A stretch of 32,745 nt of DNA from positions 1 to 32,745 of IMG/VR virus record IMGVR_UViG_3300046004_000177; one strand, written 5' to 3'. The notes under the pieces were generated by a model. The model did no database searches. It was given only the letters and a program-made list of their open reading frames with translations, and was not told where the DNA came from. Positions 22,243-32,745 of the stretch are shown here, one piece after another. The first letter of the stretch is position 1. Each line of letters begins with the position of its first letter. Source of the stretch: a virus. The position numbers were made by a program, and so were the translations under genes.

Positions 22243-22259
22243 GTTTTGAAACACGGCTA

Positions 22260-22281
22260 GATAGGGCTTGATCTCCCTATC
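22260..22281 (+). repeat. Inverted repeat GATAGGG-8-CCCTATC (operator-like)
   Basis: Perfect 7-bp arms GATAGGG and CCCTATC with an 8-nt spacer lie in the 109-bp gap before the DUF1376 gene. It belongs to the AGGG…CCCTA element family seen at other gene-block starts. It could be an operator or an RNA hairpin in the leader. Confidence 0.6.
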
Positions 22282-22345
22282 GAAAAGAGTTATCCCTTCT
22301 CCTGCCGCAGTTTCTTTTTAAGGGTGTTTAAAAAGCGGAAAATTT

Positions 22346-23125
22346 ATGCACTACTACTCCTTTCATGTGAGTGACTACATTCACGACACAGCTCATTTGT
22401 CAAATTATGAAGATTTGGCATTTAGACGATTGTTAGACTTGTATTACACAAGCGAAAAACCTATCCCAAACCAAACCCACGAGGTTGCCAGACGCATAAG
22501 GATGTCTAATCAGATCAATGCTGTTCAGACAGTTCTCGAAGAATTCTTCATGTTTGACATGGAAAATAATTGTTGGTTTCACAAACGATGCGATGAAACT
22601 ATTGCGGCTTATCAGGCAAAGGCTGAGAGGAATCGTGAGGTTGGTAAACTTGGCGGTAGACCTAAATCAAACCCAGATGCTAACCAAGAAGAAACCCAAG
22701 TGGTTTCCAAACATAACCCTAACCAAGAACCACTAACCACTAACCATAAACCAAAGAGAGAGAGCGCAACTGTCGTTGCTTGTCCTTCAGATGTTTCACA
22801 ACAAATTTGGAATGATTGGGTAGCCTTGCGTAAAAGCAAGAAAGCACCGATTACCCAAACTGTTTTGAATGGTGCTATTACTGAAGCAAAGATACTTGGT
22901 TGGCCTTTAGAGAAGTTTTTGGCTGAATGGTGCAGCCGAGGTAGCCAAGGTTTAAAAGCAGAGTGGATTGTTAAACCAAACCCTGCCGACAAAGTAAGGC
23001 TCACTGTTCCGCCATCAAATGAGCCTGACCCTGCTTTACTGAAGATTGCAGAAGATGCGAAAAAAGCAGCACCTATTCCGCTAGAAACATTGGCTAGGAT
23101 GGCTCAAATAAGGGGAAGAGCATGA
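22346..23125 (+). CDS. DUF1376 replication-type protein
   Basis: A 259-residue protein. Residues 1-60 (MHYYSFHVSDYIHDTAHLSN, then LAFRRLLDLYYTSEKPIP) are a typical DUF1376 domain, found in phage and prophage replication proteins such as YdaU-like factors. A Pro/Asn/Gln-rich linker spans about 105-140. A C-terminal helical domain follows (QQIWNDWVALRKSKKAPITQ, then GWPLEKFLAEWCSRGSQGLK), which resembles replisome-organiser C-termini. It probably helps recruit or load replication machinery, since no polymerase or helicase is encoded. The ribosome binding site is weak. It overlaps dpdA by 4 nt (ATGA). Confidence 0.8.
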   Translation: MHYYSFHVSDYIHDTAHLSNYEDLAFRRLLDLYYTSEKPIPNQTHEVARRIRMSNQINAVQTVLEEFFMFDMENNCWFHKRCDETIAAYQAKAERNREVGKLGGRPKSNPDANQEETQVVSKHNPNQEPLTTNHKPKRESATVVACPSDVSQQIWNDWVALRKSKKAPITQTVLNGAITEAKILGWPLEKFLAEWCSRGSQGLKAEWIVKPNPADKVRLTVPPSNEPDPALLKIAEDAKKAAPIPLETLARMAQIRGRA

Positions 23126-23862
23126 TCCACTATCACGGCTTGCCAATAACTCCTGCCACAGTAGCTGTCAAAGCAATTGAGAATGGTCATGCGTTTGTTT
23201 CGTTTGCTCATTCTGACCAGCTTTCTATAGCAATTGAGGTGTGTCAGTCTTTCGCCATAGACAATGGAGCATTCTCTGCCTGGCGATCTGGCAATCCAAT
23301 CCAAGATTGGCAACCTTTCTACGATTGGTCACTTAATCTAAAGAAAGTACCTTCTTGCGACTTTGCTGTTATTCCTGACGTTATTGATGGCAACGAAGCA
23401 GACAACGATGCTTTGCTGAAAGATTGCCCGCTGCCGACATGGTTTGGCGCACCAGTTTGGCATATGCATGAATCTTTAATGAGACTTGAACAACTTGCAA
23501 ACACCTATGTGCGGGTCTGCATTGGCAGTTCTGGTGAGTTTTCTACAGTAGGAACATCCAACTGGTGGGTCAAGATGGGGCAAGCCATGAGAGTTATTTG
23601 TGATGACATGGGAAGACCTGCTTGCAAACTGCATGGTTTGAGGATGCTAGACCCTGCAATCTTTACCAAATTACCATTTTCATCAGCAGACAGTACCAAT
23701 ATTGGCAGAAATGTTGGTATTGATGTGCATTGGAAGCATGGGAATTATCTGCCGCCAACCAAAGAAGCCAGAGCGCAAGTCATGCGTTCTAGGATCGAGG
23801 CATTTAATGCCCCTTCACAATGGAATTTTTATCAACCAATGGAACAGGAAACACTTTTATGA
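23122..23862 (+). CDS. dpdA: DpdA-like transglycosylase (TGT-fold), 7-deazaguanine insertion into DNA
   Basis: A 246-residue protein that looks like the tRNA-guanine transglycosylase (TIM barrel) superfamily, phage DpdA branch. Visible landmarks: IDNGAFSAW (Asp47, matching the TGT DSGGF motif), DFAVIPDVIDG (80-90), PVWHMHES (111-118), RVCIGSSGEF (131-140), CKLHGLRML (168-176) and PFSSADSTN (185-193). Asp190 sits where the TGT nucleophile is expected (compare FDS in archaeosine TGT). DpdA proteins swap guanine in DNA for preQ0 or a derivative, which protects phage DNA from restriction enzymes. The gene is coupled to the DUF1376 gene upstream and the YhhQ-like gene downstream (ATGA both sides). 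The fold assignment is from motif reading; substrate and activity are inferred. Confidence 0.72.
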   Translation: MIHYHGLPITPATVAVKAIENGHAFVSFAHSDQLSIAIEVCQSFAIDNGAFSAWRSGNPIQDWQPFYDWSLNLKKVPSCDFAVIPDVIDGNEADNDALLKDCPLPTWFGAPVWHMHESLMRLEQLANTYVRVCIGSSGEFSTVGTSNWWVKMGQAMRVICDDMGRPACKLHGLRMLDPAIFTKLPFSSADSTNIGRNVGIDVHWKHGNYLPPTKEARAQVMRSRIEAFNAPSQWNFYQPMEQETLL

Positions 23863-24341
23863 TTTTTGCTTTAATTGCATATGCTGTGGCAATGGTTGCC
23901 GCAAACCTTTTAGTGGCTACATTTGGGCCAGCAATCAGCCCAATAAACGCTTTTTTACTGATTGGACTTGATCTGACGCTGAGAGATTGGCTTCATGTTC
24001 GACTCAAAACATGGCAAATGGGTGGCTTGATATTGGGAACAGGTGCTTTGACCTATTTGCTAAACCCTGCGGCAGGAATGATTGCGGTAGCTTCTGCGGT
24101 GTCATTCTTGGTGGCGGCTTTGGTGGATTGGGCTATTTTTGTAAAAACCACAGGGTCATGGATTAAACGAGCAAATGTTTCAAATACTGCTGGTGCTGCC
24201 GTTGACTCTCTGTTGTTCCCAACGATTGCGTTTGGTGCTTTGATGCCTGAGATTGTTGCGCTTCAGTTTGTAACCAAGGTTTCAGGCGGTGCGGTTTGGT
24301 CTTATGTTCTTGAAAAGAAACTAAAGCATGAACTACTTTGA
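23859..24341 (+). CDS. yhhQ: YhhQ/VUT-family queuosine-precursor transporter
   Basis: A 160-residue, strongly hydrophobic protein with about five to six membrane helices: MIFALIAYAVAMVAANLLVA, then AFLLIGLDLTLRDWLH, GLILGTGALTYLLNP, and AVASAVSFLVAALVDWAIFV. The hallmark SNT-x-VDSLLFPTIAF segment (108-124) matches the VUT/YhhQ family, whose E. coli member imports preQ0/preQ1. It is shorter than cellular YhhQ (about 220 residues), as many phage copies are. ATG 23859 overlaps the dpdA stop; the longer in-frame start at 23820 would lie within dpdA. It likely supplies preQ0/preQ1 for the DpdA-like enzyme. Confidence 0.8.
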   Translation: MIFALIAYAVAMVAANLLVATFGPAISPINAFLLIGLDLTLRDWLHVRLKTWQMGGLILGTGALTYLLNPAAGMIAVASAVSFLVAALVDWAIFVKTTGSWIKRANVSNTAGAAVDSLLFPTIAFGALMPEIVALQFVTKVSGGAVWSYVLEKKLKHELL

Positions 24342-24441: not shown

Positions 24442-24634
24442 CATTCAAGGCCCAAGCGATAGAGTAATTCTTGAGCAAGCCGAGGCAAGAGAGCTTTATC
24501 GGAATTGGGAAGGCAGTAAAAACAGAGACCTTATTCGTGCCAGACTTGAGAGAGCCGAAAGAATCTATGGCATAGGTGCTAGAGACAGAATCCGAGAATA
24601 TATGAACAGAATCAAAGATGGAACACTTCTATGA
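24422..24634 (+). CDS. Small Arg-rich conserved phage protein (GTG start)
   Basis: A 70-residue protein read from GTG 24422: MTWSRRNIQGPSDRVILEQA, then ARELYRNWEGSKNRDLIRA and RIREYMNRIKDGTLL. It is basic, helical and without Cys. Similar MTWSRRN-QGP-DRV proteins sit next to rusA in many phages, again from memory. A nucleic-acid role is plausible. It overlaps rusA by 4 nt (ATGA). Confidence 0.7.
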   Translation: MTWSRRNIQGPSDRVILEQAEARELYRNWEGSKNRDLIRARLERAERIYGIGARDRIREYMNRIKDGTLL

Positions 24635-25059
24635 CATTTATGGTCAATTTCAAAGTAGACGCTAACCCTGTTGGCAAACAAAGAGCAAGATACGTCAAAA
24701 GGGGAAACTTTGTTAGCACATACACCCCTGAAAAGACAAGAACCTATGAGACTTTAATCAAAGAAGCTGCAATCGAGGCAATGGGTGCTTCCGAACCCTT
24801 AGAAACCCCTGTTAGCCTTTATCTTTACATTCGAGTGCCAATCCCCAAGTCATGCACCAAAAAGCGGTTAGAAGCCATTGATAACGGGTCAGAGAAGCCA
24901 ACTAAGAAACCTGACGCAAGCAATATCCTAAAGAGCGTAGAAGATGGCATGAATGGGGTTGTCTACCATGACGATTCGCAGATCATAAACATTCACGTTA
25001 CAAAGGTTTATTCAAGTCTGCCAGGCGTGGATATTTGCGTAAAAGAATGCTTGGACTAA
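24631..25059 (+). CDS. rusA: RusA-family Holliday junction resolvase
   Basis: A 142-residue endonuclease that resolves four-way DNA junctions. The RusA motifs are present: NPVGKQRARYVKRG (12-25), a beta strand PVSLYLYIRVPIP, KKPDASNILKSVEDGM (92-107) and VVYHDDSQIINIHV (110-123). The acidic residues Asp95, Asp105, Asp114 and Asp115 are candidates for the metal site, and Asn98 sits in the conserved D-x-x-N spacing. Length fits the family (about 120-150). It likely resolves replication or recombination intermediates together with the ERF annealing protein. The AGGGTTTATCCCTA element sits right at its stop. Confidence 0.9.
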   Translation: MTFMVNFKVDANPVGKQRARYVKRGNFVSTYTPEKTRTYETLIKEAAIEAMGASEPLETPVSLYLYIRVPIPKSCTKKRLEAIDNGSEKPTKKPDASNILKSVEDGMNGVVYHDDSQIINIHVTKVYSSLPGVDICVKECLD

Positions 25060-31415: not shown

Positions 31416-32745
31416 ATGGAATTCCAAGAACCTAGTGACTCAGACAAAGAGATAGTTAACTTTGTTGTCAACCATTGTGACAGATGGCGGGATTGGAGAG
31501 ATGTCAATTGCCTTGATGATTGGCTAGAGTACGAGCGTATCTTCAATGGTGAGTGGGATGTTCAAGACAAAACCCGTGAGTCCGAGCGTTCAAGAATCGT
31601 TACCCCCGCTACCCAACAAGCCGTAGAGACACGCCATGCCGAGATCATGGAAGCCATCTTTGGTCAGGGTGAGTTCTTTGACATTCAAGACGATATTCGT
31701 GATGTCAATGGTAGCCCCCTAGATGTTGCTGCCATCAAAGCACAACTGATGGAAGACTTCAAAGTAGACAAGATTCGCAAGTCTATTGACCAGATTGAGC
31801 TACTTGCTGAAATCTATGGTACGGGTATCGGTGAGATTGTTGTCAAAACAGAGAAAGTCTATGTTCCCGCTACTCAGGCAATACCTGGTCAAATGGGACA
31901 AGCCGCTATCGGAGTGGTAGAGCAAGACCGAATCGCAGTCAAGATTGTTCCTGTTAACCCCCGTAACTTCTTGTTTGACCCTAATGGAACATCTATTGAT
32001 GACTGTATGGGTGTCGCTATCGAGAAGTATGTCTCCATTCACAAGGTCGTTAAAGGTCAAGAAGAAGGCATCTACCGCAAGGTAAAGGTCGGCACTGACT
32101 CAATGGATACAGACTTGGAGCCTACACAAGAAGTCTCCCAGTACGAAGATGACAAGGTAAAACTGCTAACTTACTATGGCTTAGTCCCCCGTGAGTATCT
32201 AGAACAGTTGGAAAACGAAGATGGTGAAATAGAGGATTTCTTCCCTGAAGACACCATCCAAGACGAGTATTCCGATTTGGTTGAAGCAATCGTTGTGATT
32301 GCCAATGATGGAACACTTCTTAAAGCAGAAGCTAATCCATACATGATGAAAGACCGCCCAATTCTTGCTTATCAGGACGATACAGTTCCTAATCGCTTGT
32401 TAGGTCGTGGTACTGTTGAGAAGGCTTACAACTCACAAAAGGCTATTGATGCCCAAGTTCGTTCACACTTAGATTCACTAGCTCTCACAACTAGCCCAAT
32501 GATGGCTATGGATGCTACTCGTCTACCACGGGGTGCTAAGTTTGAAGTAAAGCCAGGCAAGGCAATCCTGACAAACGGCAATCCCAACGAGATTCTGTTC
32601 CCGTTCAAGTTTGGCAATACTGATGGTTCTAACCTGACAACTGCCAAAGAGTTTGAGCGTATGCTTCTGATGGCAACAGGCACTTTAGACTCACAGGGAA
32701 TGGTTACTGCTGTCTCCAGAGATGCGGGTCAGGGCGGTATTTCCT
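31416..32745 (+). CDS. Portal protein (3' end beyond window)
   Basis: The frame is open to the right edge, giving 443 residues. It starts MEFQEPSDSDKEIVNFVVNH and includes WLEYERIFNGEWDVQ, IVTPATQQAVETRHAEIMEA and VKIVPVNPRNFLFDPNGTSI. Later segments are GRGTVEKAYNSQKAIDAQVR and a portal-like TAKEFERMLLMATGTLDSQG. This matches P22-like portal proteins, which form the dodecameric channel at one capsid vertex. Such portals reach about 650-750 residues, so roughly a third is missing. The missing part should lead into the zinc-ribbon gene seen at the left edge. Confidence 0.88.
   Translation, partial: MEFQEPSDSDKEIVNFVVNHCDRWRDWRDVNCLDDWLEYERIFNGEWDVQDKTRESERSRIVTPATQQAVETRHAEIMEAIFGQGEFFDIQDDIRDVNGSPLDVAAIKAQLMEDFKVDKIRKSIDQIELLAEIYGTGIGEIVVKTEKVYVPATQAIPGQMGQAAIGVVEQDRIAVKIVPVNPRNFLFDPNGTSIDDCMGVAIEKYVSIHKVVKGQEEGIYRKVKVGTDSMDTDLEPTQEVSQYEDDKVKLLTYYGLVPREYLEQLENEDGEIEDFFPEDTIQDEYSDLVEAIVVIANDGTLLKAEANPYMMKDRPILAYQDDTVPNRLLGRGTVEKAYNSQKAIDAQVRSHLDSLALTTSPMMAMDATRLPRGAKFEVKPGKAILTNGNPNEILFPFKFGNTDGSNLTTAKEFERMLLMATGTLDSQGMVTAVSRDAGQGGIS

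Follow-up and report, generated by a model that had tools for sequence, protein, structure and literature searches.

A DpdA-family gene coupled to a predicted 7-deazaguanine importer gene in a viral record, and the recurrence of the pair among phages

The dependence of phage DNA modification on DpdA has been established for Escherichia phage CAjan, in which dpdA is essential for modification and about 32% of G is modified (Hutinet 2019, PMC6884629). dADG has been measured in the DNA of Salmonella phage 7-11 and Pantoea phage MED16, at the much lower levels of 0.02% and 0.13% of G, respectively; MED16 DNA remained susceptible to most of the enzymes tried, and in the passages considered no dpdA deletion is reported for either phage. 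Mycobacterium phage Orion, according to Hutinet 2019, encodes DpdA and has unmodified DNA, in a host that makes no preQ0. The study also described ‘DpdA-only’ phages that rely on preQ0 made by the host or imported (some of them with a YhhQ gene), and stated that phage YhhQ was not correlated with any specific phage group. A preQ0 transporter is further found within the full gene cluster of Enterobacter phage EC151 (PMC8310023), and YhhQ accompanies about 9% of bacterial dpd islands. The enzyme family, DpdA-only phages, their reliance on a precursor from the host or from outside, and the existence of phage YhhQ genes are, in other words, already known; what is added here is a recurrent two-gene pair, together with a contrast in the presence of QueC among the hosts that carry it.

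A coupled gene pair in an early DNA-metabolism region

The window (the whole stretch of DNA analysed, 32,745 nucleotides of IMG/VR record IMGVR_UViG_3300046004_000177) carries three overlapping genes on its plus strand: a DUF1376 / primosomal-type replication gene at 22346-23125 (Pfam DUF1376, E 6.8e-23; best match to PHROG primosomal proteins at E 7e-33), an ORF at 23122-23862 encoding a predicted DpdA-family (TGT-superfamily) base-exchange enzyme of 246 residues, and an ORF at 23859-24341 encoding a short Vut_1/YhhQ-like membrane protein of 160 residues, the predicted importer. A RusA-type Holliday junction resolvase gene follows on the same strand at 24631-25059 (Pfam RusA, E 8.2e-33), which places the pair within an early DNA-metabolism region. 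The stop codon of the primosomal gene overlaps the start of the DpdA gene in an ATGA (23122-23125), and a second ATGA (23859-23862, plus strand) joins the DpdA stop to the importer start, so that translational coupling across all three is probable; an Achromobacter prophage (L280) has GTGA at the position matching this second overlap. The original prediction had correctly located both ORFs and their coupling. It had, however, begun the importer at 23820, an ATG that would give 173 residues; the true start is most likely 23859, as indicated by the overlap with the DpdA stop, an AGGA upstream, a length of 160 residues like that of relatives, a first hydrophobic segment that begins there, and aligned relatives that begin nearby.

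The last ORF, a portal gene at 31416-32744, is cut by the end of the record, and the beginning of the record (1-1990) holds capsid genes, so that it may represent a circularly permuted and slightly incomplete genome; IMG/VR classes it as lacking end repeats. Just upstream of the primosomal gene (22250-22324, plus strand) lies a sub-threshold match to the int-alpA RNA family RF02996. Similar matches occur in sister phages (L006 7136-7209; L020 7163-7237 and 5307-5244), all scoring 27-30 bits (the gathering score is 35.8) and retaining the motifs CGGCUAG, CGAAAAG and CCUGCCG, and the element is possibly a conserved phage small RNA. A search for a preQ1 riboswitch ahead of the genes gave no Rfam match to one in the window.

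Membership of the first ORF of the pair in the phage singleton DpdA family is confirmed. Its residues 1-236 match PHROG 887 (‘queuine tRNA-ribosyltransferase’) with an E of 3.6e-66, and the protein aligns with CAjan DpdA (BLASTP E 1e-10, 29% over 161 residues; hhalign 97.6%) in such a way that Asp47 falls on LDSGAFSA and Asp190 on CDSSS. In Pfam the ORF has no match of any kind, and the TGT family (PF01702) gave none even at E 1, nor in six frames; of the two families for which a profile search of 23122-23862 had been proposed, phage DpdA was recovered and Pfam TGT was not. The CxCxxC zinc site and the C-terminal domain of cellular TGTs are absent, as is any CxC in the 246 residues, and the cellular TGT frames compared are mostly longer, at 380-410 residues. 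By Pfam, the protein is not a cellular TGT.

The landmark motifs described earlier (IDNGAF with Asp47, HGLRML, SSADSTN with Asp190, and SNTAGAAVDSLLFPTIAF) are all present, and their order in the enzyme is that of TGT. Across 59 aligned homologues Asp47 and Asp190 never vary, and the neighbouring motifs are invariant or nearly so. An AlphaFold2 run with those homologues, for which a single-sequence model (pLDDT 31) was set aside, returned a TIM barrel with a pLDDT of 92, in which strand 43-47 ends at Asp47, Asp190 lies within strand 188-191, and Asp47, Asp86, Gly135, His171 and Asp190 all sit at or beside strand ends; the barrel and the location of both aspartates at the C-terminal ends of strands, as judged by strand position, agree with the original prediction. 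Among viral models (BFVD), Foldseek matched those of phage queuine transferases, with E 1e-10 for the best that carries a name. In the PDB, the archaeal TGT 1j2b ranked sixth (E 4e-3) amid TIM barrels scoring similarly, so that TGT cannot be told from these by fold alone, and a sequence search of solved structures found no TGT. A profile-profile comparison with cellular TGTs (0.2%) is taken as uninformative, because the positive control, CAjan DpdA, was likewise low (1.4%). The two aspartates are predicted to be the catalytic residues.

The second ORF matches Pfam Vut_1 along almost the full length of the domain (E 1.4e-9; 39 bits, cut-off 27.2), has hydrophobic segments, and matches PHROG 4899 (E 3e-36), a family annotated as of unknown function that would gain a function by association from the pairing described below. 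The NCBIfam equivalog cut-offs are missed (TIGR00697, 14.6 against 50.95 bits; PRK11212, 17.9 against 252 bits), and while the earlier description of the protein as YhhQ-like stands, its treatment as a proven preQ0/preQ1 carrier was overstated: the protein is predicted to carry a 7-deazaguanine base of this kind. As had been noted for preQ0 synthesis genes, searches for QueC, QueD and FolE found none of the three in the record or in nine sister contigs (26-37 kb), any of which may be incomplete.

Recurrence of the pair in phages and prophages

Two independent importer queries retrieved the same 21 phage records, and in about 14 of these a DpdA gene lies beside the importer. Most of the 14 neighbourhoods were examined directly, those of Opt-79 and Sadiya were judged by match coordinates, and Phleasolo and duplicate records of PEAT2 and Tbat1_6 were counted through matching importer matches. 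The window query matches DpdA in only 168 of 50,697 records; the corresponding binomial expectation for 14 of 21 is 2e-30, a figure that ignores relatedness and therefore shows only that chance is out of the question. The remaining seven records form a single lineage, that of mEp021-like phages together with MagusPhagus, and in the two DpdA-less records examined the importer lies between methyltransferase-type genes.

The order of the two genes is not fixed. DpdA comes first in Acinetobacter phage AB3P2, Rhizobium phage N3_2, Vibrio phage 1.173.O and Pam5 (with one gene between), while the VUT gene comes first in PEAT2, ECO111 5-P, Tbat1_6, Opt-719, RCIP0319, LHE71, Lg3 and Phc. More divergent importers lie beside DpdA, or one gene from it, in Pam5, RHph_N3_2 and Vibrio 1.173.O, and also in the CAjan cluster. 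The presence of both orders in divergent DpdA clusters is the reason for rejecting an artefact of close relatives, and indicates that the two genes came together on more than one occasion. A recurrent, side-by-side pair in unrelated phages goes beyond the earlier statement that phage YhhQ shows no link to particular phage groups (Hutinet 2019).

In IMG/VR, an importer lies within 2 kb of DpdA at 36 of 41 window-like loci and, for DpdA of the Rhizobium-phage-like kind, at 38 of 50 (13 with one order of the genes and 25 with the other), as against 4 of 35 loci found with the LHE71 query and 5 of 71 genome loci; among prophages of sequenced hosts, DpdA without VUT is the rule (66 of the 71 loci with enough flank). 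Counted from the importer, DpdA lies within 1.5 kb at 55 of 61 Rhizobium-type and 10 of 15 Vibrio-type loci, and at none of 26 mEp021-type loci, these being from mEp021-like E. coli phages in which the importer stands without DpdA within the fetched flanks of about 4 kb. The short VUT gene of these phages (L129 5908-6420, L131 2977-3480, and L374-L400) is flanked, in mEp021, by a DUF6378 gene on one side and a DNA methyltransferase gene (PHROG 757) on the other. Two further arrangements were seen: in Caulobacter phage DMCA (L135 3708-4729) a QueD-like gene overlaps DpdA, giving a gene content intermediate between the full and the salvage-only sets, and in Pseudomonas phage Epa33 (L138 2001-4696) a C-5 cytosine methylase gene directly follows DpdA.

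Host QueC and a proposed salvage module

Among 80 prophage-bearing genomes with a DpdA locus, six have the importer beside DpdA. Full-length QueC is missing from three of these six (an actinomycetote, L343, and two Rhizobium genomes, L353 and L355), as against two of the 74 with DpdA alone (L344 and L286), a contrast with a Fisher p of 0.002, or of 0.018 when Rhizobium is counted once. Given that only six pair genomes are involved (two of them Rhizobium, which carry further Vut_1 genes), that some genomes are drafts and some flanks short, and that QueC was called at two E limits, the contrast favours import as support and not as proof. The idea of scavenging advanced in the original prediction gains from this contrast, although it is not new, DpdA-only phages having been described in 2019 (PMC6884629). 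Most DpdA hosts do encode QueC, including the genomes that hold the closest cellular relatives of the window protein (a beta-proteobacterial MAG, a Nitrosomonadales MAG, Achromobacter and Pseudomonas), so that the host of the window phage probably makes preQ0. Only three DpdA matches were found in a sample of 297 genomes of one order, and a terminase search did not place the window phage near any isolate.

The reading preferred here, at a probability of roughly two in three, is that DpdA and the importer form a salvage-type module for 7-deazaguanine modification of DNA. The infected cell would take up a 7-deazaguanine base, either preQ0 or preQ1, through the 160-residue Vut_1/YhhQ-like protein, and the DpdA-family enzyme would put this base in place of selected guanines in the phage DNA. 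The reaction would resemble that of TGT, Asp190 acting as the nucleophile and Asp47 as the general base. Coupling to the upstream replication gene would cause the enzyme to appear during replication of the phage DNA. Where the host makes preQ0, the importer would add to the existing pool; where it does not, the importer would provide the sole supply. Base exchange in DNA, the nature of the imported base and a benefit to the phage are what we infer; what is shown is family membership, the predicted fold, the invariant Asp pair, the operon anatomy and the recurrent pairing. The detection of dADG in 7-11 and MED16, which carry a DpdA of the same family and no preQ0 genes, argues for the salvage module, and the tiny extent of modification in those two phages, the usual lack of VUT beside DpdA in prophages of sequenced hosts, the missed equivalog cut-offs and the DpdA-less mEp021-like lineage argue against it. 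A strong anti-restriction role is not supported, because only 0.02-0.13% of G is modified in these relatives and most of the enzymes tried still cut the DNA of MED16; the evasion of restriction originally ascribed to the pair was overstated, as were the effects of modified DNA on the terminase and on host nucleases.

That most prophage DpdA genes lack a VUT neighbour, and that nearly all genomes with the closest cellular DpdA relatives encode QueC, would also fit an enzyme that acts on DNA with host preQ0 sufficing, the importer being a minor supplement and the pairing a matter of shared cassette inheritance. The repeated assembly of the pair in both gene orders and the enrichment of QueC-less hosts among its carriers, however, make this explanation unlikely. 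The label of PHROG 887, membership in the TGT superfamily and the supply of the tRNA pathway by bacterial YhhQ (PMC11130926) could instead point to a TGT-like enzyme and importer that raise queuosine-type modification of host or phage tRNA and so aid translation; a protein of 246 residues with neither a Pfam TGT match at E 1 nor CxCxxC, whose nearest proven relative among those compared (CAjan DpdA) modifies DNA, and whose relatives 7-11 and MED16 have modified DNA, renders this improbable. Least probable, by a small step, is a barrel protein that has lost base exchange or uses another base, beside a membrane protein that carries another solute, since the unmodified DNA of Orion (whose host, though, makes no preQ0), the missed transporter cut-offs and the generic PDB fold matches are set against two aspartates and nearby motifs that are invariant or nearly so in 59 homologues, and against repeated pairing with a transporter family known for 7-deazaguanine bases.

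If the salvage module works as proposed, two genes would suffice for some phages to modify their DNA, and such phages would live on a nutrient that other cells produce; any protection they gain would then differ from one surrounding community to another. A broader proposal, for which the odds are somewhat short of even, is that DpdA with a short Vut_1 importer constitutes a widespread, repeatedly assembled, salvage-only module, with a DNA chemistry dependent on 7-deazaguanines from other microbes, that might let phages modify their DNA even where the host cannot make preQ0 itself, a possibility suggested by the Rhizobium and Actinomycetota prophages found here. The exogenous precursor uptake envisaged by Hutinet is now directly testable with phages LHE71 and Lg3 in laboratory E. 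coli.

Comparison with described systems

The window importer shares Vut_1 with the YhhQ / QPTR / COG1738 transporters; at 160 residues it is shorter than the E. coli-type YhhQ model of 221 positions, and it scores below the NCBIfam equivalog cut-offs. Salmonella phage 7-11 (group 3 of Hutinet) and Pantoea phage MED16 have enzymes of the same family, 32% and 38% identical to the window protein, and encode a singleton DpdA with no reported preQ0 synthesis genes, as is proposed for the window; unlike the window and many other loci, they have no annotated VUT gene beside dpdA. Escherichia phage CAjan and Enterobacter phage EC151 resemble the window in combining a DpdA homologue with a small preQ0 transporter in their cluster, but they also encode FolE, QueD, QueE and QueC, whereas the window is without QueC, QueD and FolE. 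Parallels in arrangement are Acinetobacter phage AB3P2, Pectobacterium phage PEAT2, Rhizobium phage RHph_N3_2, Pseudanabaena phage Pam5 and Vibrio phage 1.173.O, in which DpdA and VUT are adjacent or one gene apart with no named preQ0 gene in the stretch examined, and which differ from the window in phage lineage, gene order and neighbouring genes.
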